Source of the DNA: a virus
Reading direction: 5' to 3' (one strand)
DNA length: 25,027 nucleotides
Virus record (IMG/VR): IMGVR_UViG_3300028835_000771
Location: 1 to 25,027 of that record
The notes beneath the pieces were generated by a model. The model saw nothing but the letters and a program-made list of their open reading frames with translations, made no database searches and had not been told where the DNA came from. Positions 1 to 16,226 of the stretch are shown here, piece after piece; position 1 is the stretch's first letter, and the number at the start of each line of letters is the position of its first letter. The translations under genes were made by a program, and so were the position numbers.

Positions 1-438
1 ACATTGTGGATGTTTGACCTTATAGAGAAGTTCGAACTTGTTCCAGTTGAGTCCGTGTTGTGGAAAAATTTGGAACACGCTCCCATAAACTTAAGTAGGA
101 TGCGAATCCAAACTGGTGATATGTTTGAATATCGTTCTGATTTCAGTCTTATGCATTATATGTATGTTTTAAGCAGTTATGATGGTCAGAGGTCGCTTTT
201 TAAAATTGAAGATTATAGTGCTATTGTAACATATTTTGGACTTGATAGGGCTAGTTCGAGTCGTACTTCTAATCGTTATGGTTTTATTACTCCAAGATAT
301 ACAGAAAGTCAGACGTTAAACTTTACGAGGAAAAAAATGTTTCCAAACTTTCATGGACTTTATACAGAAGTTCCAGAATCTAATTTGGCTTTTTCAGTAG
401 ACAGGAGGTTACTTAATGTTCAAAATAGTTGTCAATGA
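1..438 (+). CDS. Hypothetical protein, 5' end outside the window
   Basis: The reading frame is already open at base 1, so this is probably the C-terminal part (about 145 residues) of a longer gene. A TTG at 4 and an ATG at 10 exist, but neither has a ribosome binding site that can be seen. The visible part is soluble, rich in aromatic residues (Phe, Tyr, Trp), with no membrane segment and no motif I recognise. Its 3' end overlaps the start of the JAB peptidase gene by 23 bases, and the AGGAGG for that gene lies inside this one, so the two are probably translationally coupled. In PRTRC-type ubiquitin-like operons an E2-like protein is one of the partners, but I see no cysteine motif here to support that role. 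Function unknown. Confidence 0.6.
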   Translation, partial: TLWMFDLIEKFELVPVESVLWKNLEHAPINLSRMRIQTGDMFEYRSDFSLMHYMYVLSSYDGQRSLFKIEDYSAIVTYFGLDRASSSRTSNRYGFITPRYTESQTLNFTRKKMFPNFHGLYTEVPESNLAFSVDRRLLNVQNSCQ

Positions 439-1429
439 TGGAAAAAATGAATTGCCTGATGATGATATTTACTATATTATTGCAAAAGGAGGAATTTATT
501 TAAAGAAAAAAGTGGGAATCCTTGAGAGTATTGCACCTGTTAATCAAATTTCGATCTTAGAAGAAATTGAGCCAATAGCAGAATTAAACATTCGGAAAAT
601 TCCTGCTGAAAAGTTCGCTAAGATATTAGAATTCTTCAAACAAGTTTATAGTTTAAAGAAAAGTGAGGCATGTGTCCTTCTACATTATAATATGAATAAA
701 AAAAGATATATACTACAAGTTCCTCCACAAGAAGTTTCTTATGCTGGAATAGACTATATTAAGAATGTTCTATATGATGGATATGATTTGATAGGTTCTA
801 TTCATAGTCATGGATCAATGTCAGCTTTTCACTCTAGTATCGATCATATGGACGAAAAGCATTTTGATGGACTGCATATAACAATAGGTAATGTAGATAA
901 ACAATTTGTGTCAGTTTCTACTTCAATCATGTCAAATGAACATAGGTTTAATGCAAGTTCATCTAAATATATAGATGGCTTAGAATTAGTCGAACATACT
1001 CCCTGGTGGCCATCGATGTTTAAACCAGGTTTTAAAGTAGTTAATGGAAAGAAAAAATATAAGAAAAATGTTAAAAGTAAACTTGGATATACAGTTCTTG
1101 CAAGTAATGAAGAAAAAAAGTTTGACAAACGATGGCTTAATTTTGTTAAGTCGAAGAAATATGCTAGAGGTTATCAAGTAGGGACTAGTTATCTAAAAGA
1201 TCTATATAAAAATTTACAAATGGGTACTACACGAAATGTTAAAGACGTTGTGATGTTTGAGCAGGGATCTCAGATTAAAGATGAGAAACAAGAGTATAGT
1301 CCTTGTTCAGACTGTCTTTTTAGAAACTTTAAAGTTGAACTTGCTATGAATGACTTAATAGAATCAAAGGAATCAGAAACCGGAGAGGTTGATTTGTCAC
1401 CTGACTTTATGGGTGACTTTATGGGGTAG
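416..1429 (+). CDS. JAMM/JAB-domain metallopeptidase (deubiquitinase-like, PRTRC-A-like)
   Basis: 337 residues. A JAB/MPN+ domain spans about residues 60-170 with the full zinc-peptidase signature: Glu84, then H130-S-H132, seven residues, Ser140, two residues, Asp143 (HxH-x7-S-x2-D). Enzymes of this fold cleave isopeptide bonds or trim the tail of ubiquitin-like proteins. The rest is unfamiliar: a Lys-rich stretch around 205-245, a lone CxxC pair at Cys297/Cys300, and a repeated DFMG at the C-terminus. The start is supported by AGGAGG at 402-407, eight bases before the ATG. It is followed ten bases later by an E1-like gene and then a ubiquitin-like gene, which fits processing or removal of that modifier. 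The metal-binding residues are seen directly; the substrate is inferred from neighbours. An alternative is a RadC-like or tail-assembly JAB protein, but no NlpC/P60 domain is present. Confidence 0.85.
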   Translation: MFKIVVNDGKNELPDDDIYYIIAKGGIYLKKKVGILESIAPVNQISILEEIEPIAELNIRKIPAEKFAKILEFFKQVYSLKKSEACVLLHYNMNKKRYILQVPPQEVSYAGIDYIKNVLYDGYDLIGSIHSHGSMSAFHSSIDHMDEKHFDGLHITIGNVDKQFVSVSTSIMSNEHRFNASSSKYIDGLELVEHTPWWPSMFKPGFKVVNGKKKYKKNVKSKLGYTVLASNEEKKFDKRWLNFVKSKKYARGYQVGTSYLKDLYKNLQMGTTRNVKDVVMFEQGSQIKDEKQEYSPCSDCLFRNFKVELAMNDLIESKESETGEVDLSPDFMGDFMG

Positions 1430-1439
1430 GAGGATATTA

Positions 1440-2132
1440 ATGAAAACAGTAAATATTAAAATTATTGGTTTAGGTGGTGTTGGGTCTGTTCTTTCTGAGA
1501 AAGTATGTAGGTTTGTAGAGCACTTGCAAGACTTCCAATCTTCAATCACTCTTGTTGATGGTGATGCCTATGAACGTAAGAATCTTGAACGACAAGAGTT
1601 TTTAGAGTTTGGTAACAAAGCCACAATTAAAGAAGTTGAGTTAAGTCGTAAATTTAGTGGAATAAATATCAGTCACATTCCTTATTTTGTTAATGAAGAA
1701 ATAATCTCAGAAGTAATTAAAGAGAATGATACAGTACTCTTAGGAGTAGATAATCACAAAACAAGGAAGTTAGTTTCTGATTTTTGTAAAGAGTTACATG
1801 ATGTAACTCTTATTTCGGGCGGAAATGAGTTTACGGATGGGAATGTCCAAATTTATGTTAGAAGGGAGGGTAAAGATTTAACACCGGACTTAAGTTCTTA
1901 TCATCCAGAAATACAAAATCCAGTTGATAAATCGCCTGATGAGATGTCGTGCGAGGAGTTATCTCAATCGGAACCACAGTTATTCTTTACTAACTTAGGC
2001 GTAGCAACTATTATGTGTTGGGCATTTTATAATGTTGCTATAAAAGAAAACTATAAGTTTTCTGAGATTTATTTTGATGTTTTAACAATGTCAGCTGACT
2101 CGAAGTTTAGATCAGTAAAACGAAGGAGGTAG
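1440..2132 (+). CDS. ThiF/E1-family adenylyltransferase (ubiquitin-activating-like, PRTRC-type)
   Basis: 230 residues. A Rossmann-type E1 domain: nucleotide loop GLGGVGS at 10-16, acidic Asp40/Asp42, then NLERQ at 48-52 (the Asn/Arg/Gln signature of MoeB/ThiF/E1 proteins), and GVDN around 102-105. Cys171 in the segment MSCEELSQSEPQ is a candidate thioester cysteine; the following FFTNLGVATIM region resembles other PRTRC ThiF proteins as I recall them. Such proteins adenylate the C-terminal glycine of a beta-grasp modifier. The ATG at 1440 is chosen over an in-frame ATG at 1389 because GGAGG lies just upstream of it and the Rossmann strand starts at once. The ubiquitin-like gene begins three bases after the stop codon. 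The family call is firm; that the neighbour is its substrate is inference. Confidence 0.9.
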   Translation: MKTVNIKIIGLGGVGSVLSEKVCRFVEHLQDFQSSITLVDGDAYERKNLERQEFLEFGNKATIKEVELSRKFSGINISHIPYFVNEEIISEVIKENDTVLLGVDNHKTRKLVSDFCKELHDVTLISGGNEFTDGNVQIYVRREGKDLTPDLSSYHPEIQNPVDKSPDEMSCEELSQSEPQLFFTNLGVATIMCWAFYNVAIKENYKFSEIYFDVLTMSADSKFRSVKRRR

Positions 2133-2135
2133 TAA

Positions 2136-2624
2136 ATGTCTACATATACAAAAGAGCAACTGGAAGCGAAGACAGCCGCAGAACTGAAACAAATGTGTGT
2201 TTATAATCTGAACATTCCTGGAATGTCTAAGAAAAGGAAAGACGTTATTATTGGCGCCATCCTTGAGAACCAGGGTGTACCTTCAGTAGCTCCGAAGACT
2301 GACACACCGAAGACTGACAGACCGAAGGTTGACCAGAGAGTAACTGCTATGGCAGCCTCTTTTGAAAGTCGTCTTACGAAACCTGCAAATCGTAAAGGTG
2401 ATAGGACTACTACAACTGTCCGAGTTTCTTGTGGCGCTTCTTCTGGTGATTTTGACTTGGCTAATAAAACTGTTGGTGCCGTTGCGGAGTTCTTGAAAGA
2501 AGTTCTGAATGTGGACCGACTAGCACAGGGTATTGTTAACGGCAATCCTGTGACCGATAGTTATATTCTGAAGCCAAATGATACACTTGAGTTCTTGAAA
2601 ACAGCTGGATCAAAGGGCTGCTAG
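2136..2624 (+). CDS. Ubiquitin-like beta-grasp protein with N-terminal SAP/Rho-N-like domain (PRTRC-C / Prok_Ub-like)
   Basis: 162 residues in three parts. Residues about 9-47 have the helix-turn-helix pattern of SAP or Rho-N-like domains (AELKQM...IPGMSKKRKDVIIGAI). A linker follows with three tandem 5-residue units (PKTDT, PKTDR, PKVDQ), encoded by 15-base repeats starting at 2292, 2307 and 2322. Residues about 92-162 look like a small beta-grasp domain ending VNGNPV...LKPNDTLEFLK and then TAGSKGC, close to the GTKG-type ends of prokaryotic ubiquitin-like (PRTRC protein C) families. The final Cys after the last Gly would have to be trimmed, perhaps by the JAB peptidase, if Gly is the activated residue. 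It has an excellent AAGGAGG site. The gene is visibly richer in GC than its neighbours (32 of 60 bases at 2281-2340 against 16 of 60 at 661-720). Confidence 0.75.
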   Translation: MSTYTKEQLEAKTAAELKQMCVYNLNIPGMSKKRKDVIIGAILENQGVPSVAPKTDTPKTDRPKVDQRVTAMAASFESRLTKPANRKGDRTTTTVRVSCGASSGDFDLANKTVGAVAEFLKEVLNVDRLAQGIVNGNPVTDSYILKPNDTLEFLKTAGSKGC

Positions 2625-2693: not shown

Positions 2694-3242
2694 ATGAGAA
2701 AAACAGTACAAGAAAGAATGGATGACTTGAAAGTATCCATGATAAAATATTATCGTCACAAATCTTTAGTAACTCAGAACATCTTTACAGCTTGTCTTCT
2801 TTTTAGTGACAACAAAGCTATGATGGCCAGAGGAGTTGCTATATGTTCAGTTTTGGACTCGTTCTCGAAAGCCACTGGAAGAGGAATTGCTCTAAGTAGA
2901 GCTCTCAAAGCTGCTGAAAGTGAAGGAAGTTCTGAACCAATTAATAACTATCCATATCGTTGGAGGACCTTGTTTGTTGGAAGGTCTATGAGGATAAAAA
3001 CAAAAGAAGACAAAGATTATTTTAACGATAAAGTTCTCCCTGTTCTTACTGAAATTCAAGATATTGAGAAAGGGGATGTTAAAACTCAAACAGAAGAAGA
3101 CTCAAATGGGAACATGAAAGTTAAAATTCTATATAGGATTCCTCGTGACTATCCATTAGAGGAGACTTCTAAAATCTTTGACTACAAATCGGAGTTTATG
3201 CCGCAACCAACAGATATAGAGAAGAAGTTATTTCTATTGTAA
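2694..3242 (+). CDS. Conserved-looking phage protein of unknown function
   Basis: 182 residues, mostly soluble and helical. Residues about 45-70 contain a distinctive stretch, ARGVAICSVLDSFSK followed by GRGIALSRALKAAE, which resembles short segments I recall from uncharacterised phage proteins; I cannot name a function. The second half is charged with an EDSNGNMKVK turn and a predicted strand. The start is supported by AAGGAATT about ten bases upstream of the ATG. The gene sits alone between two hairpins (2640-2664 and 3254-3281), so its expression may be set apart from the ubiquitin-like genes on its left. Confidence 0.8.
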   Translation: MRKTVQERMDDLKVSMIKYYRHKSLVTQNIFTACLLFSDNKAMMARGVAICSVLDSFSKATGRGIALSRALKAAESEGSSEPINNYPYRWRTLFVGRSMRIKTKEDKDYFNDKVLPVLTEIQDIEKGDVKTQTEEDSNGNMKVKILYRIPRDYPLEETSKIFDYKSEFMPQPTDIEKKLFLL

Positions 3243-3303: not shown

Positions 3304-3558
3304 ATGGCCTATGATGAAAAGAAGGATATTTTGATAAAAATGATTGAGATGAAACAGGGAGATTCGTCGCTCCATTTTTCAGTCTTCTCTTACGACGGCG
3401 GAGAAGCGAAACTTCAGATCTCCAGGATGTTTCAGAAAAAAGATGGAACAGCTTCATACTCGAAAGTTGGACGACTTACGAAAGAGGAAGTTAAGTTCTT
3501 TTTAGACCATTCGGAGGGAATTTTGGAGTTAATAAACAATTTTGAAAGTAGTCGATAA
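3304..3558 (+). CDS. Small protein, possibly PC4/YdbC-like nucleic-acid binder
   Basis: 84 residues. The ATG at 3304 is chosen because GGAGGG lies at 3294-3299; a TTG at 3292 would overlap that site. The sequence reads like a small beta-sheet domain followed by one helix: KLQISRMFQKKDG, then KVGRLTKEEVKFFLDHSEGI. The strand, strand, (K/R)xG-x-LT-x-EE helix order faintly recalls PC4/YdbC single-strand-binding domains, but the match is weak and made by eye. The codons are less AT-rich than the surrounding genes, as in the ubiquitin-like gene, which may point to high expression. It lies upstream of the second E1-like gene. Confidence 0.75.
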   Translation: MAYDEKKDILIKMIEMKQGDSSLHFSVFSYDGGEAKLQISRMFQKKDGTASYSKVGRLTKEEVKFFLDHSEGILELINNFESSR

Positions 3559-3610: not shown

Positions 3611-4468
3611 ATGTATTCTTGTATAGCTATTATTGGTCTTGGAACTCTTGGTGGTTTTGTAACTGACTCGGTCTCAGAGCTAGAAACTGTGGAAGAAATA
3701 GTTATAGTAGACTATGACCAAGTACAAGAGAAGAATCTAAGGAATTCAATTTATAAGTGGAATGATGTTGGAAAACTGAAAACTGACGCTCTTTTTGATA
3801 TTATTCGTTCAAAGAATGAAGATATAAAAATAACAAAACTGAATGTGCGATTTATAGAAGAAGAAAATGTTCTTCCAGTTTGTGATCTAGTATTAGATTG
3901 TAGGGACTTTGTATATGATAGAAAAGAGTTGGTAGATGTTAGATTATATATCTCTTCAAGGTATATGATAGTTGACTGTAGGAAGAATGTGAAATATGAC
4001 AAACATTTTGAAGGAAGATATACTAGTAGCTTATCAAAGAGTGACCTTAGAAATGCAGCGAATATGGTTTTAGTACTGATTGAAAATGGTGTTATTTCTT
4101 CTTCAATTAGAGACAACAATGTAAGTAAGTTTGACTTAGACTACCTAAAACAAATGAACCAAAAAACAGACGATGTAGCTTATGATACTGTAGTTGGAGA
4201 AGAAAAGTTAATAAATTTGAGAGAAAATTTACTTCCAATACTTAAGATGAATAAGAAGTCAGACTTAGATGTGAATATGTGTATTGGTGAGAAGAACGTT
4301 TCTGTTAAAACTATACCCAGAGGAGCGTTAAGATCGGGAGAAGATGTTATTGTTAACTTAACGTCGATGTTAAATTTACCAGTAATATTTAATAACTTTG
4401 TAATATCAACATACGAAGAGGAGAACAAAAGTTATGTAGTATTAATTCCAGAAACTGGGGCTGCATAA
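3611..4468 (+). CDS. Second ThiF/E1-like adenylyltransferase
   Basis: 285 residues. The N-terminal half is a clear E1/ThiF Rossmann domain: GLGTLGG at 9-15, Asp34/Asp36 at the end of strand 2, NLRNS at 42-46, VGKLKT at 53-58 and DLVLDCRD at 92-99. It differs from the first E1 of this window: the usual NxxRQ is NxxNS, so the catalytic arginine may be lost or replaced, and no obvious thioester cysteine stands in the usual place (Cys91, Cys97 and Cys123 are the nearby ones). The C-terminal 90 residues are unfamiliar and end ...PETGAA. The stop overlaps the next start (TAATG), so it is translationally coupled to the E2-like protein. The E1-fold call is firm; whether it is active, and on what, is open. 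Confidence 0.8.
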   Translation: MYSCIAIIGLGTLGGFVTDSVSELETVEEIVIVDYDQVQEKNLRNSIYKWNDVGKLKTDALFDIIRSKNEDIKITKLNVRFIEEENVLPVCDLVLDCRDFVYDRKELVDVRLYISSRYMIVDCRKNVKYDKHFEGRYTSSLSKSDLRNAANMVLVLIENGVISSSIRDNNVSKFDLDYLKQMNQKTDDVAYDTVVGEEKLINLRENLLPILKMNKKSDLDVNMCIGEKNVSVKTIPRGALRSGEDVIVNLTSMLNLPVIFNNFVISTYEEENKSYVVLIPETGAA

Positions 4469-4968
4469 TGAGTATAAAAGAGATAGAAGTAAAAAAAGTT
4501 ATAGTTCCGAGGAAGATGATATATAGGAACAGTTTATTTAGAATTACGGATATTGATCCAAAGTATGTTGTTAGAAGTTATGTTGTTAGAACAGTTGATG
4601 GTAAAATTGACTCTATTCGTTTGGATTCAGTACATCCAAACTCTGATCCAGATACGAATGACTTTTGTATCCCTTTCGAACTAAAGAACCTTCCTTTTAA
4701 TGAACGAACTAGAGAGTACATAGAACATATGATTAATATACTCAATATAGATAATTGTTATTTTACTCCGTGGGGGGAGATCGAATATGAAAAAATTGAA
4801 GTTAAGGACTGGGTAAAAATGAAAAAGATAAATCACGAAGAAAGTATTTCTTCAAAACGAAGTATTCTTTCAAAGTTTATAGAAGATAAGATAAGAAAGA
4901 TTTTTGAAAGAAACAGAATAATGATACAAAATCGGAAAAGGGGAAAAATAGATGACAATTTTAAGTGA
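4468..4968 (+). CDS. Candidate E2-like (ubiquitin-conjugating-fold) protein
   Basis: 166 residues. Two probable strands (residues 33-52) lead into VHPNSDPDTNDFCIP: His56-Pro57-Asn58, eight residues, Cys67. Canonical E2 enzymes have HPN, about seven residues, then the catalytic Cys, so spacing and order fit. A helix (about 79-94) and NCYFTPW follow. The C-terminus is a basic, probably helical tail from about 118. The size suits an E2 core, and its start overlaps the stop of an E1-like gene, the arrangement found in bacterial E1-E2-JAB-Ubl operons. I do not see the long E2 segment with Tyr-Pro-x-x-Pro-Pro upstream of HPN, so this could be chance. The reading frame itself is secure; the E2 role is a hypothesis. 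Confidence 0.75.
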   Translation: MSIKEIEVKKVIVPRKMIYRNSLFRITDIDPKYVVRSYVVRTVDGKIDSIRLDSVHPNSDPDTNDFCIPFELKNLPFNERTREYIEHMINILNIDNCYFTPWGEIEYEKIEVKDWVKMKKINHEESISSKRSILSKFIEDKIRKIFERNRIMIQNRKRGKIDDNFK

Positions 4969-5158
4969 AGAAGTTGAACAAGAGATAATCGAGTTAGTAA
5001 AAAAAATGATTGAAGAAACACAAAATGAAGTTACGAAAGATGAAATTAAAGAGGTTATAAATTCAATCCTTCCAGACATTGATGAACTAATATCTGTGAA
5101 GGTAAAACAACATTTTATTGAGATAGCAGAATTTATCAAAAATAAATTTCAGTCATAA
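4952..5158 (+). CDS. Small acidic helical protein upstream of RNA polymerase beta-prime
   Basis: 68 residues, rich in Glu, Lys and Ile, predicted to form two or three helices with no membrane segment (EEVEQEIIELVKKMIEE near the start). It overlaps the preceding gene by 17 bases and stops 11 bases before the beta-prime start. The site AAAAGGGGA lies upstream of its ATG. Position suggests a role with the polymerase (an omega-like or other small subunit, or a chaperone), but no sequence motif supports a specific call. Confidence 0.7.
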   Translation: MTILSEEVEQEIIELVKKMIEETQNEVTKDEIKEVINSILPDIDELISVKVKQHFIEIAEFIKNKFQS

Positions 5159-5169
5159 AGGAGACGACT

Positions 5170-7890
5170 ATGCCAAAAATTTTGGATTATAATAAATTCT
5201 GTGAAGATCTAAAAGAAGTTACTTCAGTTAAAATTATGTTAAAGAAAAGATTTCATCCAGAAGGTTTGTTTTCAGAGCAAATTTTTGGACCAGTGAGAAA
5301 CTATACTTGTCAATGTGGAACATATTATGGAGTTTCTAGATCTGGTGGTACATGTAAGATTTGTAATGTCGATATTGTAAACAGTTATGAGAGAAGGAAA
5401 CGATTTGCTAAGATAACATTACCAATACCAATAGTTAATCCGATGTTCTATGACTTAGTTGTTAGCGTTGGAGGAAATGACATAAGGTCTGTCATTGATA
5501 TGTTAATGAAAAATGATAAAAGTGTTCTCTATATGGACGGAGAAGACCACGTTGTTACAAGTAATCCAGATAAAGTTCCAAAGAAAGTTCAGACATGGGA
5601 AAAGTTCGAAGCAATCCAAAAGGTAGTCTTAGACTTAGCAACTAATCTTGCAAGTGAGGGTTTTAAAGATTGGCAACTAATTAAGAACAATATTGACATG
5701 CTTTTTATTAACCATATAATAGTTCTTCCACCAGATTTAAGACCGGCCTCTAAAGGTGTAAGCAAAAACAATCAAGTAGTTGATAAGATCAATAGATATT
5801 ATGTACAAATACTTACAAAAAAAGAGATAATGAAAGGTACTATCATTGATATAGGTAGAGACAAAGTTTTGTTTTATACTTATTTTAAACAATTACAAAA
5901 AGATGTTAACGAATTGTATTATCATATTCTTGACAAACTTTCGAAGAAAGAGGGTCTTATTAGGGGAAATATACTAGGGAAACGAATTGACTTTTCAGGG
6001 AGAGCAGTAATCGTTCCAGATCCAACCTTAAACTTAAATGAGTGTGTTATTCCGTATTTAATGTTTTTAGAAATGTTTAAGATTCCAGTTGCAAAGAAGT
6101 TACTGGAAATTAGAAGGTTTAAGTTATTAAATAGAGCAATTGATTTTGTTGATGAATGTATTAAACAAAAATCACCTGTTCTTTTTAAAATTTGTGAGGA
6201 GTTGTCAAGAGATGAAGTATGTATTTTGAATAGACAACCATCTCTTCATCGACTTGGAATGTTAGGTTTTAATATTAAGATTAGTTTAGACTCAGTAATT
6301 AAAATTCATCCGCTTGTTTGTTCTCCGTTTAATGCAGATTTTGACGGAGACCAGATGGCAGTTTATATTCCAATATCAGAGGCAAGTAAGAGAGAAGTTA
6401 GAGAGAAACTTTTTGTTAGTAAGAACTTAAGCAGTCCCGCTAATGGGAGTCTTACTACTCCTCCAGGTCAAGATATGGTGTTGGGGATCTTTAGTCTAAC
6501 AAATAATCAGTTTTCAAATTTAAGAGAGGAGACTTCTTGTAAGGGAAGTATGGTTTCTAAGGGGATAAAGATTTTTAATGAATGTTTACCAGAAGATTAT
6601 CCTCTAATAAACGAACCTGTAAATAAGAAGAAGTTGTTAAAGATCTTAAATGATATTAAATCTAGATATAACGAAATAGTTACTATGGAAATACTAGATA
6701 ATATAAAAAGAGTGGGTTTTAAATATTCTACATTATTAGGAACAACAATGTCATTAGGTGATTGTTTTTTCGAAGATTCTGAAAATGTAAAAAGTTTATT
6801 ATACTCACCTGAGAATATTAGGACTCAGTTAACTAATATTTCTAGTAAAGAAACGGAGGAACTTCTAAAAAAGAATTTTACTTATTCTTATTTAGTTGAG
6901 TCTGGTGCGCGGGGAACTTGGGACCAAGTACGGCAAATTATTCTTACAAGAGGATTTATATCAAACTTTAGCGGAGAAATTTTACCAGTACCAATTAAGA
7001 ATAGTTTATTAGATGGTTTAGATCAACAAGAATTTTTTAATTCAACTTATGGTTGTAGGAAAGGACTATTAGATGTAGCACTAAATACAGGCACATCAGG
7101 TTACCTTTCAAGAAAACTGATATTTACTTGTGTAAATTTACAAATTGATTTAGAATTAGACGACTGTGGAACATCTGATTGTTTAGAGGTTTATATAAGC
7201 AATTCAAAGAAAGCAGAGATGTTAGTTTGGAGATATTTTCTAGAAAATAATGAGTTAAAACAAATTACTCCTGAGAACTGGAAAGGTTTTATTGGAAAAA
7301 CAATCCGTTTAAGAAGTCCAATATTTTGTACGAGTCCAAAGATTTGTCATAAGTGTTATGGTGACCTTTACAAAATACTTCATAGTAGATTTATTGGAGT
7401 AATCGCCGCTCAGTCACTTGGAGAACGAGGAACGCAACTTATTCTTCGTACTTTTCATACATCTGGTTCAGCAGTTATCAAGGGTATTAGTGACGACGCC
7501 AGTATTGATATGAAACAAATGGATATTGTTGCAGATTTGTCTGTAATTTCAGGCTTATTACATCAGTTTAAAGATAAAACTCATGAAGATATAGTTTCTG
7601 AATTATTTGACGTGTATAATAGTAGTGGTCAGGGAATCCACCATGTCCACTTTGAATGTGTAGTTTCACAGTTAATGTGGAAGAACTTAAAGAAGTGGCG
7701 TCTTTTGTCTAATCGAGACAAAGTGTCTCCAGAGTTCCATAGCGTACAAACAGTTCCTAGTTATGAGTCATGGTTATTAAGTTTAGCTTTCTCAAATCCG
7801 AAACGAAGTATTCTCCGAGGAATCTTAAATACTGACTCATATCGAGGGATTATGGACAAGATTTTAGAGGGAGAGAAAGTAGATGGATAA
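5170..7890 (+). CDS. rpoC: DNA-directed RNA polymerase beta-prime subunit, phage-encoded, unsplit
   Basis: 906 residues, shorter than the roughly 1200-1400 of bacterial proteins. It carries the bacterial-type landmarks in order: PEGLFSEQIFGP near 30; N-terminal zinc ribbon with Cys47, Cys49, Cys62, Cys65; GKRIDFSGRAVIVPDP; RQPSLHRLGM; the magnesium-binding NADFDGD at 388-394 (Asp390, 392, 394); PGQDMVLGIFSLT; bridge-helix region YGCRKGLLDVALNTG; trigger loop TSGYLSRKL near 641-649; second zinc site with Cys666, Cys720, Cys726 and Cys729; and GVIAAQSLGERGTQL near 743-757. In the last motif Arg753 stands where bacteria have Pro (GEPG). AAGGAG lies ahead of the ATG. Jumbo phages related to phiKZ and AR9 have beta-prime split into pieces; this one is a single gene. 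It catalyses RNA synthesis with the beta subunit encoded just downstream. Confidence 0.97.
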   Translation: MPKILDYNKFCEDLKEVTSVKIMLKKRFHPEGLFSEQIFGPVRNYTCQCGTYYGVSRSGGTCKICNVDIVNSYERRKRFAKITLPIPIVNPMFYDLVVSVGGNDIRSVIDMLMKNDKSVLYMDGEDHVVTSNPDKVPKKVQTWEKFEAIQKVVLDLATNLASEGFKDWQLIKNNIDMLFINHIIVLPPDLRPASKGVSKNNQVVDKINRYYVQILTKKEIMKGTIIDIGRDKVLFYTYFKQLQKDVNELYYHILDKLSKKEGLIRGNILGKRIDFSGRAVIVPDPTLNLNECVIPYLMFLEMFKIPVAKKLLEIRRFKLLNRAIDFVDECIKQKSPVLFKICEELSRDEVCILNRQPSLHRLGMLGFNIKISLDSVIKIHPLVCSPFNADFDGDQMAVYIPISEASKREVREKLFVSKNLSSPANGSLTTPPGQDMVLGIFSLTNNQFSNLREETSCKGSMVSKGIKIFNECLPEDYPLINEPVNKKKLLKILNDIKSRYNEIVTMEILDNIKRVGFKYSTLLGTTMSLGDCFFEDSENVKSLLYSPENIRTQLTNISSKETEELLKKNFTYSYLVESGARGTWDQVRQIILTRGFISNFSGEILPVPIKNSLLDGLDQQEFFNSTYGCRKGLLDVALNTGTSGYLSRKLIFTCVNLQIDLELDDCGTSDCLEVYISNSKKAEMLVWRYFLENNELKQITPENWKGFIGKTIRLRSPIFCTSPKICHKCYGDLYKILHSRFIGVIAAQSLGERGTQLILRTFHTSGSAVIKGISDDASIDMKQMDIVADLSVISGLLHQFKDKTHEDIVSELFDVYNSSGQGIHHVHFECVVSQLMWKNLKKWRLLSNRDKVSPEFHSVQTVPSYESWLLSLAFSNPKRSILRGILNTDSYRGIMDKILEGEKVDG

Positions 7891-8143
7891 TTTTGATATA
7901 TCTAGATTATTAGAAGGCTTAGAAAATATTTCTGAACAAAGACGACAAATAAGAGGAAAACTATTTAAGTTTGTACGAGATTATTATTCGAGTAGTAAAT
8001 ACTGGAACTCGGGATTAGAACGTAAAATGTCATTTAACTATTTATCTGATTACTCTGATGGTGGTCTATTAGGAATTTGTAAAGGAATTTACGATAACCT
8101 TCCAGAAGATTTAAAACTAGAGTGTGGAGGAAAAAAATATTGA
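7883..8143 (+). CDS. Small hypothetical protein between beta-prime and beta
   Basis: 86 residues, charged N-terminus (LLEGLENISEQRRQIRGKLF) then a Tyr/Ser/Asp-rich half; no motif or membrane segment. Its ATG overlaps the end of the beta-prime gene by eight bases with GAGGGAGAG ahead of it, and its stop TGA overlaps the TTG start of beta. The nested overlaps on both sides mean its expression is tied to the two polymerase subunits, so an accessory or assembly role is plausible. Function unknown. Confidence 0.7.
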   Translation: MDNFDISRLLEGLENISEQRRQIRGKLFKFVRDYYSSSKYWNSGLERKMSFNYLSDYSDGGLLGICKGIYDNLPEDLKLECGGKKY

Positions 8144-11142
8144 ACATAAAGAACCCATATTTTAAAGTTAATAAGGAACAGAATATCTTCGTTATAAGAG
8201 AACGAGAATATTCTGAGATATTAGAAAATGTTCGAGAAATCTTAAAACCAGTAGAAGAACTTGGATTTACTATTGCTGAACTTGATCTCCGAGAACACAA
8301 GTTCTCGTCTGGTGAATTAAATAAAACGTTAAGAGAAAATCTAGTTATTCGACTTCAGAAAGGAAATTCTGAAGTAGATTTAAGTATGTTAATACCAAAA
8401 CTAGTTGACCACAATTATATCGTTATTAATGGTCGAAAGAAGATACCACAATTTCAATTAATAGATACTCCCATAGTTACAAGAGGTCAAACTATTAAAT
8501 TACGGACAAACGTTGCTACACTGACAATTTCTGAAGAAAAAGAGGCTCCATTTATCCAGTCAACTTTTTTAAATAAAAAAGTTTCTTTGGCACTTTTGAT
8601 GTTTTCATATTTTGGTCCTGAAGAGTTGGAGAGAAGGTATAATCTTTCTAATTTAAAACCTGAAAGTGATTCTTTAATTGGCAAATTGATGAGTGATTTG
8701 AAAACACGTGAAACTGAGTCTAAAGGGATGACGCAAGACGACTTTATACCAGAGTTAGGAAGGAATTATACAAAATTTAATCCTAAGTCAAAAGGGGAAG
8801 ATATTGTATATGCCATTGACTTAGTATTAAAAACAGATATCATGACAAGAAGATTTTTTGAGAAGGACAACATTCTAGACGAAGTGATATCTGTAATTGA
8901 GAAAGAAGAGCTGGATGACACATTATTTACTAATAAAAGAGTACGATGTTTCGAATATATGGTATTATCGAAAGTGTCAAAAGCAGTTTTTGACTTATGT
9001 TTATCTAATAGAACTACAAGACAGCCAAAGTTTAATGTTAACTCAACGCAGATTCTTTCTGAGTGCAATGTTTCTGATATTGTTCAGTTTGACTTTTCAA
9101 TTAATCCAATAGAAGAGTTAACGAAATTATCTAGGATAAGCCTTCTGGGTCCAGGCGGTTTTAAAAGAGAGAATGTTCCAGCCCATCTTCGAGATATTTA
9201 TCCATCAATGATGGGAAGGATATGTCCAGTTGACACGCCAGACCGAGATAATTGTGGTGTGTTACAAGATTTACTTCCAAACGTAAAACTTGACGAGAAC
9301 CTAAGGTTCACCGAAGAAATTTTAGATAAACAACCAGTTTCAGTACCTGTTTCGTTTATTCCATTTCTAGAACATGATGATCAAACTAGACTACAAATGG
9401 CTTCGTCGCAGATGCGACAGGCTATTATGTTAAAAGAGTTTGATGTACCAATAGTCCAGTCTGGTTGTGAAGGGTTGTTCACTGATTATACTCAATTTGT
9501 AAAGAGAGCTAAAAAGGATGGAGAAGTTATTTATCAAGATCCTAATTTTATAATAGTTATATACGACGATAAAGATATTGACATTTTTGATATATCATAT
9601 AGAAAGATTTACGTTGAAAACATGGACTTTATGAACGTTTATGTTAGAGTGGGTGATAAGTTTAAAGCAGGAGATATTTTAGCAGAAAGTAATTTTTGTA
9701 TGGGTGGAGAAGTACAATTTGGAAAAAATCTTTTAACAGCTGTAATGTCCTATTATGGAAACAATTATGAAGATGGTATTGTAATATCAGACCGATTAGT
9801 TAAAGAAGGAGTTTTTACCTCTGTACATTATAAAGACCTATCTTTTACATTGCCGCCAAACAAAGTCCTTTTGAGTCTCGATGAGGAAAAGTATAAACCA
9901 CTTCCAGATATGTATGAGACGATTGAGGTTGGAAAACCGTATGCAATTATGAAAGAAATCTCGTCTGAAAATCATTTTTCAGTTTTTGAAGAAAAAACTA
10001 AATTAGAGGCACAAAAGAAACTTATTATAACTGAAGTTAATATTTATCCGAATATTTGGAATGACGAGATACCAGAGTTTAGACGATGGATAGAAACTAG
10101 GATTGAAGAACAACAAAAGCGGGAAAATTATTTTAAACAGGTCTTAAAAGATTCCTTATCGAAAAACGTTGCTTCTAGTTTTATACGAGATAAAGGACTA
10201 GATAAATTTTCATTTGTTGAAAAATATAAAGTAAAAAAAGAACGTATAAATGGGGTACGTGTTGAAATGTTTGGAGTCTATTTTAGACAGATCCAAGTTG
10301 GTGATAAGATTGCAAATAGACATGGAAATAAAGGAGTGATCTCTCAAATTGTAGAACATGAAAAGATGCCACAGTTAGAAGATGGAAGACATGTTGATAT
10401 ATGTATTAATCCTCTTGGAATAATTTCAAGAATGAATATTGGTCAATTATATGAGTTACATTTAGCGATGTCATTAGAAGACTTGAAAGAGGAGATCTTG
10501 AAGAGAATAAGAGACGAAAAATATGACAATAAAAAAGTTAGAAAGTACTTGTTCGATTATATTAAAATAATTGATAATACCGAAGAAAATTGGTATACAA
10601 AACAATTTATGGAACAATGTCCAAAAGTAATAGATGAGAACTTTATTAAGAATCTTACTTTAATACAACCTCCTTTTGAGTCTGTAACTAGAAGTCAAAT
10701 TGAACAAGCTTTAGAGTATACAGAAACTATGCCAAAGTATAAGATTTTTGACCCAGTTTCAAAAAGTTTTCTTGAGAATGATATTGCTGTAGGTTTTATT
10801 TACTTCTTTAAAATGATCCATATTGCTGAAGAACGACTAGCGGCTAGAGGAATTGGGTCGTATGCAAGGAGGACATTACAACCTCTTGGTGGAAGAAAGA
10901 ATAAGGGTGGTCAAAGATGCGGTGAAATGGAAACAGCTTGTTTAATTGGCCATGATGCTCCAGTTGATCTCCATGAATTTCTTACAACTAAGTCTGACTG
11001 TATTGATTTAAAGAATGACTATATCCGAAATTTTATCGAAGCTGACTTAGTACCAAGGGAAGAGGAAATTGATGCTACTCCAGAATCTGTTAAGTTGTTA
11101 AAAGCCTACTTAACTGCTATAGGTGTAGTAAGTCAGAGGTAA
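8140..11142 (+). CDS. rpoB: DNA-directed RNA polymerase beta subunit, phage-encoded, unsplit
   Basis: 1000 residues from a TTG at 8140. This start is preferred over GTG at 8122 because GGAGG (8126-8130) sits nine bases ahead of it and would be inside the gene otherwise. Bacterial-type landmarks in order: GPGGFKRENVPAHLRDIYPS and GRICPVDTP near 337-367; NLLTAVMSYYGNNYEDGIV at 530-548; KIANRHGNKGV around 723-733; INPLGIISRMNIGQLYELHL; and QPLGGRKNKGGQRCGEMETA near 914-933. These build the active-site half contributed by beta. It is a little shorter than the bacterial protein. The gene order is beta-prime, then beta, the reverse of bacterial rpoBC. No alpha or sigma gene is seen in this window, so the enzyme either uses unrecognised phage partners or recruits host ones. 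Confidence 0.97.
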   Translation: MNIKNPYFKVNKEQNIFVIREREYSEILENVREILKPVEELGFTIAELDLREHKFSSGELNKTLRENLVIRLQKGNSEVDLSMLIPKLVDHNYIVINGRKKIPQFQLIDTPIVTRGQTIKLRTNVATLTISEEKEAPFIQSTFLNKKVSLALLMFSYFGPEELERRYNLSNLKPESDSLIGKLMSDLKTRETESKGMTQDDFIPELGRNYTKFNPKSKGEDIVYAIDLVLKTDIMTRRFFEKDNILDEVISVIEKEELDDTLFTNKRVRCFEYMVLSKVSKAVFDLCLSNRTTRQPKFNVNSTQILSECNVSDIVQFDFSINPIEELTKLSRISLLGPGGFKRENVPAHLRDIYPSMMGRICPVDTPDRDNCGVLQDLLPNVKLDENLRFTEEILDKQPVSVPVSFIPFLEHDDQTRLQMASSQMRQAIMLKEFDVPIVQSGCEGLFTDYTQFVKRAKKDGEVIYQDPNFIIVIYDDKDIDIFDISYRKIYVENMDFMNVYVRVGDKFKAGDILAESNFCMGGEVQFGKNLLTAVMSYYGNNYEDGIVISDRLVKEGVFTSVHYKDLSFTLPPNKVLLSLDEEKYKPLPDMYETIEVGKPYAIMKEISSENHFSVFEEKTKLEAQKKLIITEVNIYPNIWNDEIPEFRRWIETRIEEQQKRENYFKQVLKDSLSKNVASSFIRDKGLDKFSFVEKYKVKKERINGVRVEMFGVYFRQIQVGDKIANRHGNKGVISQIVEHEKMPQLEDGRHVDICINPLGIISRMNIGQLYELHLAMSLEDLKEEILKRIRDEKYDNKKVRKYLFDYIKIIDNTEENWYTKQFMEQCPKVIDENFIKNLTLIQPPFESVTRSQIEQALEYTETMPKYKIFDPVSKSFLENDIAVGFIYFFKMIHIAEERLAARGIGSYARRTLQPLGGRKNKGGQRCGEMETACLIGHDAPVDLHEFLTTKSDCIDLKNDYIRNFIEADLVPREEEIDATPESVKLLKAYLTAIGVVSQR

Positions 11143-11174
11143 GGTTGTTTCTAATAATGAGAGGAATAGACTTG

Positions 11175-12050
11175 ATGAAAAAAGATGATTTACCTGATAT
11201 TCAAGAAACAAGACCGAGAATTGAGATTCCAATTCAACAAGTAGGAGTTGAGAATGTAGAAATCCCATTTGAACTTGAATCGAAGTACGGTGGTTTTACT
11301 AGTCTAGTGGCAAACGTCTCAATGCGAACGAGTTTAGACTCTTCAATAAGAGGAATCTCGATGTCAAGGTTATTACTCACTTTAAAAAAGTATTTAGATA
11401 GACCATTAAAACATGTTTTAATAAGAGAGATTTTAGAAGACTTAAGAGTCAATATTGGTTCAAAAACTAGTTTTATGAAGTTTGAATTTAGACTTCCAAT
11501 AACTAAGAAGTCACTAATTTCTAACAATGAGTTTCCAATTTATTACAAATGTAGATTTGAAGGTCAGTTGATTAAGTGGCTATCCGCTGGTACCAAAGAC
11601 ATTCCTCTCTTCAAGTTTTTTCAAGGAGTTAAAATACAATATACATCGTACTGTCCATGTTCGGCGGAACTTTGTAATAACTTAGTAGAGAAGGGAGCTA
11701 CTGGATTTCCTCATGCACAAAGATCTTATGTCGATGTCTTAGTTCAAGTAGTAGAACGGCATTATGTTTGGTTAGAGGACATTATCGAAACAATAGAAAG
11801 TGTGGTAAAAACTCTTCCATATCCAATAGTAAAACGAATAGATGAACAAGAGATTGCTAGGATTGCGTCAGAAAATCCGCTTTTTGTGGAAGATGCAATA
11901 CGAGAGATTTCTAACGCCTTTAATAAACGAGAGGACTTTTATGATTGGATTATTAAATGTACCCATGAAGAATCAATTCATACTTCTGAGGCTATTGCTG
12001 TGAACTGGAAAGGAGTGAAAGGTGGGTTTGACGAAACATATTATATTTAA
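11175..12050 (+). CDS. folE2: GTP cyclohydrolase IB (FolE2/MptA type)
   Basis: 291 residues, T-fold enzyme converting GTP to 7,8-dihydroneopterin triphosphate, the first step of folate and of queuosine/7-deazaguanine synthesis. Landmarks: DLPDIQ near the N-terminus; CPCSAELC from Cys160; FPHAQRS with His180; VKRIDEQ...NPLFVEDAIREI with Glu239; and EESIHTSEAIAV near the end, all matching the FolE2 pattern including the catalytic Cys and the metal-binding His and Glu. The ATG at 11175 is preferred because AGAGGA precedes it and the conserved LPDIQ follows; ATG 11157 and TTG 11145 are possible but poorly served. It follows the polymerase beta gene by 32 bases in the same direction. Base composition matches the neighbours. 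No queC, queD or queE partner is in view. Confidence 0.93.
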   Translation: MKKDDLPDIQETRPRIEIPIQQVGVENVEIPFELESKYGGFTSLVANVSMRTSLDSSIRGISMSRLLLTLKKYLDRPLKHVLIREILEDLRVNIGSKTSFMKFEFRLPITKKSLISNNEFPIYYKCRFEGQLIKWLSAGTKDIPLFKFFQGVKIQYTSYCPCSAELCNNLVEKGATGFPHAQRSYVDVLVQVVERHYVWLEDIIETIESVVKTLPYPIVKRIDEQEIARIASENPLFVEDAIREISNAFNKREDFYDWIIKCTHEESIHTSEAIAVNWKGVKGGFDETYYI

Positions 12051-14990: not shown

Positions 14991-16226
14991 ATGAACAAGA
15001 AAATTCTTGGTTTAATACTTATCGGTGTCGTTATAATTGTCGGTCTTATTTTAGGGGGTAGCCTTATTGAAACTGTAGAAAAGGGGACGTATCAAGTAAA
15101 ACAAGCTGCTGTATCTGGAAAAATGTCCGCTAAAATGGACCCTGGGTTATGGTTCCAGATGTTTGGTGATATTGAACCTTGGCCAAAGGCAGAAACTTTC
15201 TTCTTTACAGCTGATATATTAGAAGGAGAAAAAATAGATCAAAGCATTGAAGTTAGATTTGTAGATGGGTCATTATGTAATCTTTCTGGAACTCTACGTA
15301 TTATTCTTCCAATTACGGAATCTGAAGCGATTTCTTTAACGACTGTACGTGGACATAAAAAGTATAAAGATATGGAACAGAAATTGATTCTTCCTACAAT
15401 CAGAAATGTTTTAAGGTTAACAGCAAACCTTATGACTGCTAGAGAAAGTTATTCTACACAAAGGGCTGACTATGTAATGTGGGCTAGGGACCAGATTATA
15501 AACGGTTTGTACCAGACTACTGCTATAGAAAAGAAAATAAAAGATTTGGTTTCTGGTGAGATGGTTACCAAAACGTTCAAAGTAGTAAAAGTAGATGAAA
15601 ATGGGAACCCTCTCTATCATCCTAATCCTCTAAAGGGGACTGGTATTCGTTTGCAGAACTTTGAAATTAAAAAGTTTGTTTACGAGAAAAAGGTAAATAA
15701 CCAGATCGCCACTCAACAAGAAGCGTTAATGGCGGTTGCAACTGCTAAAGCAAAAGCTCAGGAGGCCGAACAGAATAAACTAACTCTTGAGGCACAAGGT
15801 AAAGCAAATGTAGCGAAAGCCCGATATGAAGAGGAACAAATTAAAGTTCGGGCTGTAGTTGTTGCTAATAGAGAAAAGGAAGTTCAGGTTATTGCTGGTG
15901 AACAGAGAAAAGCAGTAGCTAAACTTGACAAAGAAGCAGCTGCATTAACAAAGCAACAACAGATTCTTCTTGGACAGGGTGAAGCAGAAAGGAAACGGCT
16001 AGTACTAGCTGCTGATGGTGCCCTAAAACAGAAACTTGAAACCTATGAGAAAGTTATGTCGATATGGGCTGATGCTTTTTCTAAAAGGAAAGTTCCTTCT
16101 GTTATAATGGGAGGAGGAGGTGTTGATGGAGATGCATTGTCTATGTCAGACGTTATGTCGCTAATGGCAATGAGACAATTAGGATTAGATCTCAGTATTC
16201 CAAGAGGAGCAACTGTTGGTAAGTAA
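14991..16226 (+). CDS. SPFH/band-7 (prohibitin/flotillin-like) membrane protein
   Basis: 411 residues. One N-terminal membrane segment (about 5-24, LGLILIGVVIIVGLILGG), an SPFH domain (about 25-235) and a long Ala/Glu/Lys/Gln-rich coiled coil (about 240-350, e.g. AVATAKAKAQEAEQNK), then a short Gly-rich and Met-rich tail. This is the layout of HflK/prohibitin/flotillin proteins, which form oligomeric rings or cages on the inner membrane face and regulate proteases or membrane domains. AGAGGAG lies ahead of the ATG. A small membrane coiled-coil gene follows after a hairpin, suggesting a partner. Family assignment is solid; its purpose in the phage (membrane remodelling, superinfection control, protease control) is unknown. 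Confidence 0.88.
   Translation: MNKKILGLILIGVVIIVGLILGGSLIETVEKGTYQVKQAAVSGKMSAKMDPGLWFQMFGDIEPWPKAETFFFTADILEGEKIDQSIEVRFVDGSLCNLSGTLRIILPITESEAISLTTVRGHKKYKDMEQKLILPTIRNVLRLTANLMTARESYSTQRADYVMWARDQIINGLYQTTAIEKKIKDLVSGEMVTKTFKVVKVDENGNPLYHPNPLKGTGIRLQNFEIKKFVYEKKVNNQIATQQEALMAVATAKAKAQEAEQNKLTLEAQGKANVAKARYEEEQIKVRAVVVANREKEVQVIAGEQRKAVAKLDKEAAALTKQQQILLGQGEAERKRLVLAADGALKQKLETYEKVMSIWADAFSKRKVPSVIMGGGGVDGDALSMSDVMSLMAMRQLGLDLSIPRGATVGK

Follow-up and report, generated by a model that had tools for sequence, protein, structure and literature searches.

A phage gene cassette with a divergent E1-like protein coupled to a predicted HPN-type E2, probably part of a ubiquitin-like conjugation module

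The window analyzed here comprises the whole stretch of 25,027 nucleotides from the IMG/VR record IMGVR_UViG_3300028835_000771 and derives from the genome of a tailed phage; its GC content is 33%, and it encodes a large terminase subunit, FolE2, an SPFH protein, and the RNA polymerase subunits beta and beta'. A cassette of genes related to ubiquitin-like (Ubl) conjugation is located on the plus strand, directly 5' of rpoC, and the following features were assigned to it and to its immediate surroundings:

1..438, + strand: Prok-E2_D protein, C-terminal part, cut by the window end (the homologue at L001, 3426-5951, has a similar end)
416..1429, + strand: JAB/JAMM metalloprotease, PRTRC_A-like (Prok-JAB 1.8e-5; PRTRC_A 1.4e-12; residue conservation)
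1440..2132, + strand: E1a, ThiF/PRTRC_ThiF-like activating enzyme (ThiF 1.6e-18; PRTRC_ThiF 1e-9)
2136..2624, + strand: Ubl, with an N-terminal SAP/Rho_N-like part (Rho_N 3e-5) and a C-terminal Prok-Ub-like beta-grasp sequence
2694..3242, + strand: X, accessory protein, present in about 9 cassettes
3304..3558, + strand: Y, small accessory protein, present in about 9 cassettes
3611..4468, + strand: E1b, 285 aa, E1-fold and C-terminal beta-grasp-like domain (ThiF 2e-13; AF2 model; structural matches)
4457..4465, + strand: C-terminal G283-A284-A285 of E1b (conservation counts)
4468..4968, + strand: E2-like protein, 166 aa, UBC-like domain at residues 1-110 and a low-confidence C-terminal helix (conservation, profile, model)
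4633..4641, + strand: H56-P57-N58 of the E2-like protein (alignment of 33 homologues)
4666..4668, + strand: C67 of the E2-like protein, predicted thioester cysteine (33/33 homologues)
4952..5158, + strand: Z, small helical protein between E2 and rpoC, kept in most cassettes
5170..7890, + strand: phage RNA polymerase beta' (RpoC-like), marking the genomic position of the cassette
8122..11142, + strand: phage RNA polymerase beta (RpoB-like)

The E1b and E2-like open reading frames overlap by one base (TAATG at 4466-4470), and both lie where the sequence-only reading had placed them. Further downstream, a type IB GTP cyclohydrolase (FolE2, 11145-12050), which occurs in most cassettes, follows directly 3' of rpoB, and positions 14991-16226 encode a phage protein of the SPFH/Band_7 (prohibitin-like) type whose N-terminal segment is hydrophobic.

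The 166-residue protein had been singled out for an arrangement of residues as in the active site of E2 enzymes, and HPN-x8-C is literally present, with H56 encoded at 4633-4635, P57 at 4636-4638 and N58 at 4639-4641. Direct searches of this ORF against Pfam, PHROGs, NCBIfam and PADLOC gave nothing usable, so that an alignment of homologues was required. The first search with the protein led to L001, a syntenic relative with 69% identity, and the final alignment comprised 33 non-redundant homologues with a median pairwise identity of 25%. Within it solely H56, N58 and C67 are invariant (33/33 each), with P57 kept in 32/33, and after clustering at 50% identity the His, Asn and Cys are all retained in 26/26 homologues; their invariance was one of the checks that the sequence-only reading had proposed. 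A profile search of 177,635 PDB sequences yielded no more than three matches with E up to 10. All of them are eukaryotic E2s (E2-21 kDa, PEX4, and the ubiquitin-conjugating enzyme 1yrv, in our reading UBE2U) and all align on HPN...C, with a spacing in PEX4 identical to that in the phage protein. Each match is weak by itself (E 0.13-0.41), and the weight of this result would lie in its specificity for E2s. The comparison with Prok-E2 families, which had been proposed as a check, was less productive on the Pfam side: the window protein matches none of the E2 families, and no Prok-E2 model matched it or any of 31 homologues, which would still be compatible with a distant relationship. Among the family members UQ_con is the commonest Pfam match, yet it was found in just 2/32 (best 0.0059). 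By hhalign, the family alignment matched three human E2s with E=2.8e-4 and a probability of 41%, as compared to 0.06-0.6% for control alignments of unrelated cassette proteins. This match was lost once H, P, N and C were masked (E 0.47) and, therefore, it is the active-site motif that carries the homology to E2s in sequence; outside this motif, no similarity to them is measurable.

The predicted fold points in the same direction. An AlphaFold model built from 32 sequences reaches a pLDDT of ~97 over residues 1-110, with a beta-meander plus helix order and a C-terminal helix of low confidence. With VIA-align, the matches to residues 1-108 are essentially all UBC/E2 domains and extend over about 85-90 residues, at a modest Z of 4.0-4.9 and an rmsd of about 3-4, while the remaining rows match the C-terminal helix; a Foldseek search of the model against PDB and BFVD gave no significant match. 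Neither a non-UBC fold nor a variable Cys67, the two outcomes that the sequence-only reading had set against an E2, was encountered, and the E2 reading is supported by alignment and model. Taking the evidence together, we consider it very probable that the ORF at 4468-4968 encodes an E2. Protein X (2694-3242) was also considered as the E2 of the cassette and was rejected, given that it has no E2 signal and that only about 9 cassettes encode it.

The gene that overlaps with the E2-like ORF encodes E1b, which had been described as a divergent E1-fold protein with NLRNS in place of NxxRQ. This motif is found at residues 42-46, and the fold is well backed: the AF2 model of E1b has a mean pLDDT of 89, residues 1-186 form an E1 adenylation fold, HMMs match MoeB (6e-14) as well as ThiF, and structural comparisons give Z scores of 15-19 to E1s overall, the best match being the E1 domain of Cap2 (19), followed by MccB and SAE2 (about 17) and MoeB and ThiF (16-17). 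The GxGxxG motif is present (G9, G11 and G14, 36/36), as are D34 and K57 (36/36) and D96 (34/36). NxxRQ, on the other hand, is degenerate, reading NLxNS in most homologues, with N at position 45 in 25/36 and S at position 46 in 26/36. One residue before, at site 44, K or R occurs in only 23/36; an HMM alignment with MoeB in which one residue is deleted would place this basic residue opposite the MoeB Arg. No conserved catalytic Cys was found in the crossover-loop region of 36 homologues: C97, within a DCRD motif, is the only invariant cysteine, C123 is present in 27/36, and no conserved Cys follows further on. Thus, of the two E1s initially proposed, E1b is one for which the term "E1" denotes a fold and not an activity.

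C-terminal to the adenylation fold, residues 219-280 of E1b are predicted by AF2 to follow a beta-beta-alpha-beta-beta order, the minimal one for a beta-grasp. Since profile comparison by hhalign found no similarity between this domain and the cassette Ubl, we infer a beta-grasp from the order of secondary-structure elements only. ETG[A/G]A forms the C-terminus of E1b, with G283 kept in 33/36, A, G or S at position 284 in 35/36, and A285 in 35/36. All four Gly and all four Ala codons are in use at this tail and such free variation indicates that selection acts on the protein. A Shine-Dalgarno site for E2 was considered as an explanation for the Gly-Ala end and was rejected, both because the codons vary freely and because the motif persists in L036, where the next gene is 76 nt away. 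Given the lack of NxxRQ and of a conserved catalytic Cys, together with a beta-grasp-like domain with a TG[A/G]A tail, E1b is probably a pseudo-E1 or an adaptor.

The genes further upstream form a core in which PRTRC_A-, ThiF-, Ubl- and Prok-E2_D-type proteins all occur together. In the JAB protein, E84, H130, H132, S140 and D143 are invariant (41/41), and E1a has an intact NLERQ and a candidate catalytic C171 (SCEEL), with the Arg, Gln and Cys of these motifs kept in 42/42 homologues. The PRTRC_A and PRTRC_ThiF scores of these two proteins are both below the curated NCBIfam equivalog cut-offs, so the cassette is PRTRC-like and not a strict PRTRC member. The window Ubl ends with ...AGSKGC and, across its family, G-x-K-G near the C-terminus is conserved and followed by nothing (KG), a Cys (KGC, 12/46 Ubl-family ORFs) or short non-conserved extensions, a pattern like that of processed Ubl precursors. 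The gene upstream of JAB encodes a protein of ~840-860 aa when intact, of which only the last 145 residues are within the window. The Prok-E2_D model is matched by 18/26 of its family members (best 3.3e-6), and in intact homologues the Prok-E2_D/PRTRC_B-like domain is N-terminal, with N181 and C189 as invariant residues (L001 numbering; Cys 26/26). This protein, whose predicted E2 domain would lie just outside the left end of the window, is by its profile matches the second E2-like protein of the cassette. The nearly full pathway of JAB, two E1s, E2 and Ubl that had been proposed is therefore present in its parts and has to be amended by another E2-like domain.

Several variations on these core proteins were observed. 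The C-terminal extension of JAB contains a PCxxC motif (PCSDC, window 1300-1330), likewise found in L001, L008 and L044, which is possibly metal-binding. In L035 (10649-11278), the Ubl continues for some 60 residues past AGDKG, as a natural precursor or a fusion form, and in L027 (6129-6491), L025 (6045-6482) and L028 (6031-6471) a second SAP/Rho_N-like protein, with an acidic, Pro-rich tail instead of a beta-grasp, is encoded upstream of the Prok-E2_D gene.

The distribution of the cassette was assessed in 48 viral loci gathered by searching with E1a alignments, whose ORFs were then scanned with iterated HMMs. In most of them, the gene order is JAB - E1a - Ubl - (X, Y) - E1b - E2 - (Z) - RpoC - RpoB. 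E1b is present in 42 viral cassettes and an HMM-detected E2 adjoins it in 40 of these, starting from -52 to +9 nt relative to the E1b stop. In the other two (L036 and L044), a diverged ORF occupies the E2 position, in which visual inspection shows a retained H-x-N followed later by a Cys. Such recurrence, together with the invariant His, Asn and Cys, indicates that neither the E1b-E2 pairing nor the motif is due to chance. JAB-E1a-Ubl is also found without E1b/E2, namely in L008, L046, L048, NC10 bacterial contigs and L063, and when the larger records that contain the loci with JAB-E1a only (L008, L046 and L048-L050) were searched by profile, no E2 and no full-length E1b were detected. From these distributions, the E1b/E2 pair looks like an addition, in phages encoding RpoB/RpoC, to a PRTRC-like core. 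No match to E1b or E2 was obtained by tblastn against 50,697 phage records, and a scan of bacterial and archaeal genomes found no E2-like protein of this family. A full cassette adjoining RpoC/RpoB was observed on a contig binned as a Thermoplasmatales archaeon (L053, 8679-12836, 28% GC), for which a host origin and mis-binning are both conceivable. In L044 (10712-11941), the N-terminal part of the SAP-Ubl, without its beta-grasp end, runs in frame into E1b, either as a fusion or as a sequencing/assembly error. L063, a contig of 33% GC binned as Neisseriaceae and possibly phage, has two adjacent Prok-E2_D-like proteins (6857-8851) preceding JAB-E1a-Ubl. In L060, a contig of NC10 (Methylomirabilota), JAB-E1a-Ubl (9109-10956) is preceded by a CDC48/PAN-like AAA ATPase (7076-9049), an arrangement that suggests a chromosomal Ubl-unfoldase unit.

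Based on these results, the E1b/E2 pair probably belongs to a phage-encoded ubiquitin-like conjugation module, with E1b as the partner of E1a. This reading draws on the invariance of His, Asn and Cys in an otherwise diverging E2 family, on PDB profile matches confined to E2s, on an hhalign match to E2s above its controls, on confident models that resemble E2s and, for E1b, E1s, on the adjacency of E1b and E2 and their co-occurrence with JAB, E1a and Ubl, and on the conserved JAMM residues, E1a motifs and Ubl Gly of a core with a Prok-E2_D protein in the same cluster. In such a pathway, JAB would trim the residues past the invariant Ubl Gly where these are present (KGC to KG), and E1a would adenylate the Ubl and then hold it on C171. 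Transthiolation would bring the Ubl to C67 of the E2, where N58 and H56 may shape the catalytic site in the manner of eukaryotic E2s. From C67, the Ubl would be passed to an amine on a target, a link that JAB could reverse. E1b is most likely not itself Ubl-activating and would form a pair with E1a, in the role that the inactive subunit has in the heterodimeric SUMO and NEDD8 E1s (SAE1-UBA2 and NAE1-UBA3), while its C-terminal beta-grasp-like domain may dock the E2, as UFD domains do. For the target, the gene position allows guesses such as the phage RNA polymerase or virion proteins. Pfam models detected no phage proteasome in 11 related records, and this makes a self-contained route of degradation slightly less likely.

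Sulfur-transfer pathways, too, employ E1s of the ThiF/MoeB type and Ubls whose tail, e.g., ...GC, is trimmed. The Ubl/E1a/JAB core could thus be a sulfur carrier, in which JAB trims the tail and E1a converts the Ubl to a thiocarboxylate that serves in biosynthesis or RNA modification, with the E2-like proteins as sulfur relays or scaffolds. The KGC ends of part of the Ubl family would fit this explanation, but the cassette encodes two E2-type proteins with an invariant Cys, HPN is an E2 signature that sulfur transfer does not need, and no sulfurtransferase/rhodanese domain was found among the cassette proteins scanned, so we regard a sulfur carrier as unlikely. We give slightly less credence to E1b-E2 as a separate second pathway, in which the modifier would be the beta-grasp domain of E1b itself, processed at TG|[A/G]A. 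Its strand order, the C-terminus conserved at the protein level and the adjacency of E1b and E2 are in line with this. However, the tail of a precursor is variable, whereas the terminal Ala here is itself conserved (35/36), and E1b lacks NxxRQ and has no profile similarity to Ubls. It is likewise rather improbable that E1b combines an E1-like part with a Ubl domain of its own, is processed at the TG[A/G]A end of that domain and feeds this second modifier to the adjacent HPN-type E2, such that two Ubl pathways, one PRTRC-type and one E1b-E2 type, would run side by side, possibly on phage RNA polymerase or virion proteins. That the HPN-x8-C protein is a small beta-rich mimic of the E2 motif, e.g., a metal- or nucleic-acid-binding phage protein, is very improbable: the non-significant Foldseek result and the sequence similarity confined to the motif would allow it, but exactly H, N and C are invariant, the PDB profile matches only E2s, E2s dominate the matches to residues 1-108, and an E1-fold gene adjoins.

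With conjugation by the phage cassette thus inferred from sequences and models as the preferred reading, the closest known system is the PRTRC operon, considering the PRTRC_A-like JAB, the PRTRC_ThiF-like E1a, the Ubl and the Prok-E2_D protein. The type 6d operons, which by our own reading equal PRTRC operons, comprise JAB-N/JAB, ThiF, Ubl, Prok-E2_D and a helical protein, and their E2 is without the active-site His (Iyer et al. 2006, PMC1779556). Both systems share, within one gene cluster, a PRTRC_A-type JAB, a PRTRC_ThiF-like E1, a small Ubl with a C-terminal Gly and Prok-E2_D. They differ in that the phage Prok-E2_D lies inside a protein of ~850 aa, the phage Ubl carries a SAP/Rho_N-like domain, and the phage cassette adds E1b and an HPN-type E2, a type with the His that the PRTRC E2 lacks. 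The HPN...C active site is shared with eukaryotic and archaeal E2s (PEX4, UBE2U, UBE2D) and the Caldiarchaeum E1/E2/RING cascade (PMC5654768), whereas the phage domain is very short (~110 aa) and without the N-terminal helix. The bacterial Bil/Bub and CBASS Cap2 systems share E1, E2, Ubl and JAB components; those serve host defense and Cap2 has its E1 and E2 fused, while the phage genes are separate and encode two E1-like and two E2-like proteins.

The known cases of Ubl conjugation in bacteria are mainly host defense systems (Bil/Bub, CBASS Cap2) or belong to mobile elements of the PRTRC type. The jumbo-phage overviews that we examined make no mention of a Ubl conjugation system, and no report of phages encoding one was found in the open-licence PMC literature, in agreement with the sequence-only reading, which knew of no description of this pairing. 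What is new here is the extra E1b and HPN-type E2, the architectures of the Ubl and E2_D proteins, and the phage RNA polymerase context. Large uncultured phages with their own multi-subunit RNA polymerase would thus keep a pathway in which two E1-like proteins are joined by two E2-like ones; of the latter, one has a eukaryotic-type HPN...C active site that is absent from PRTRC E2s. With its compact gene set, the cassette lends itself to asking if phages attach such tags to their own proteins or to those of the host, and E1a/E1b may be a prokaryotic parallel to the eukaryotic heterodimers of an active and an inactive E1. Among cultured large phages, Bacillus phage vB_BauM_KLEB27-3 and Salmonella phage Arash share a PRTRC_A/JAB gene followed by a ThiF gene; unlike the phage analyzed here, they have, going by annotation, no E1b/E2 pair in the displayed regions. 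In Arash (L066, 2261-4539), the ThiF gene that adjoins JAB is annotated as "structural protein", which may hint at an association with the virion.
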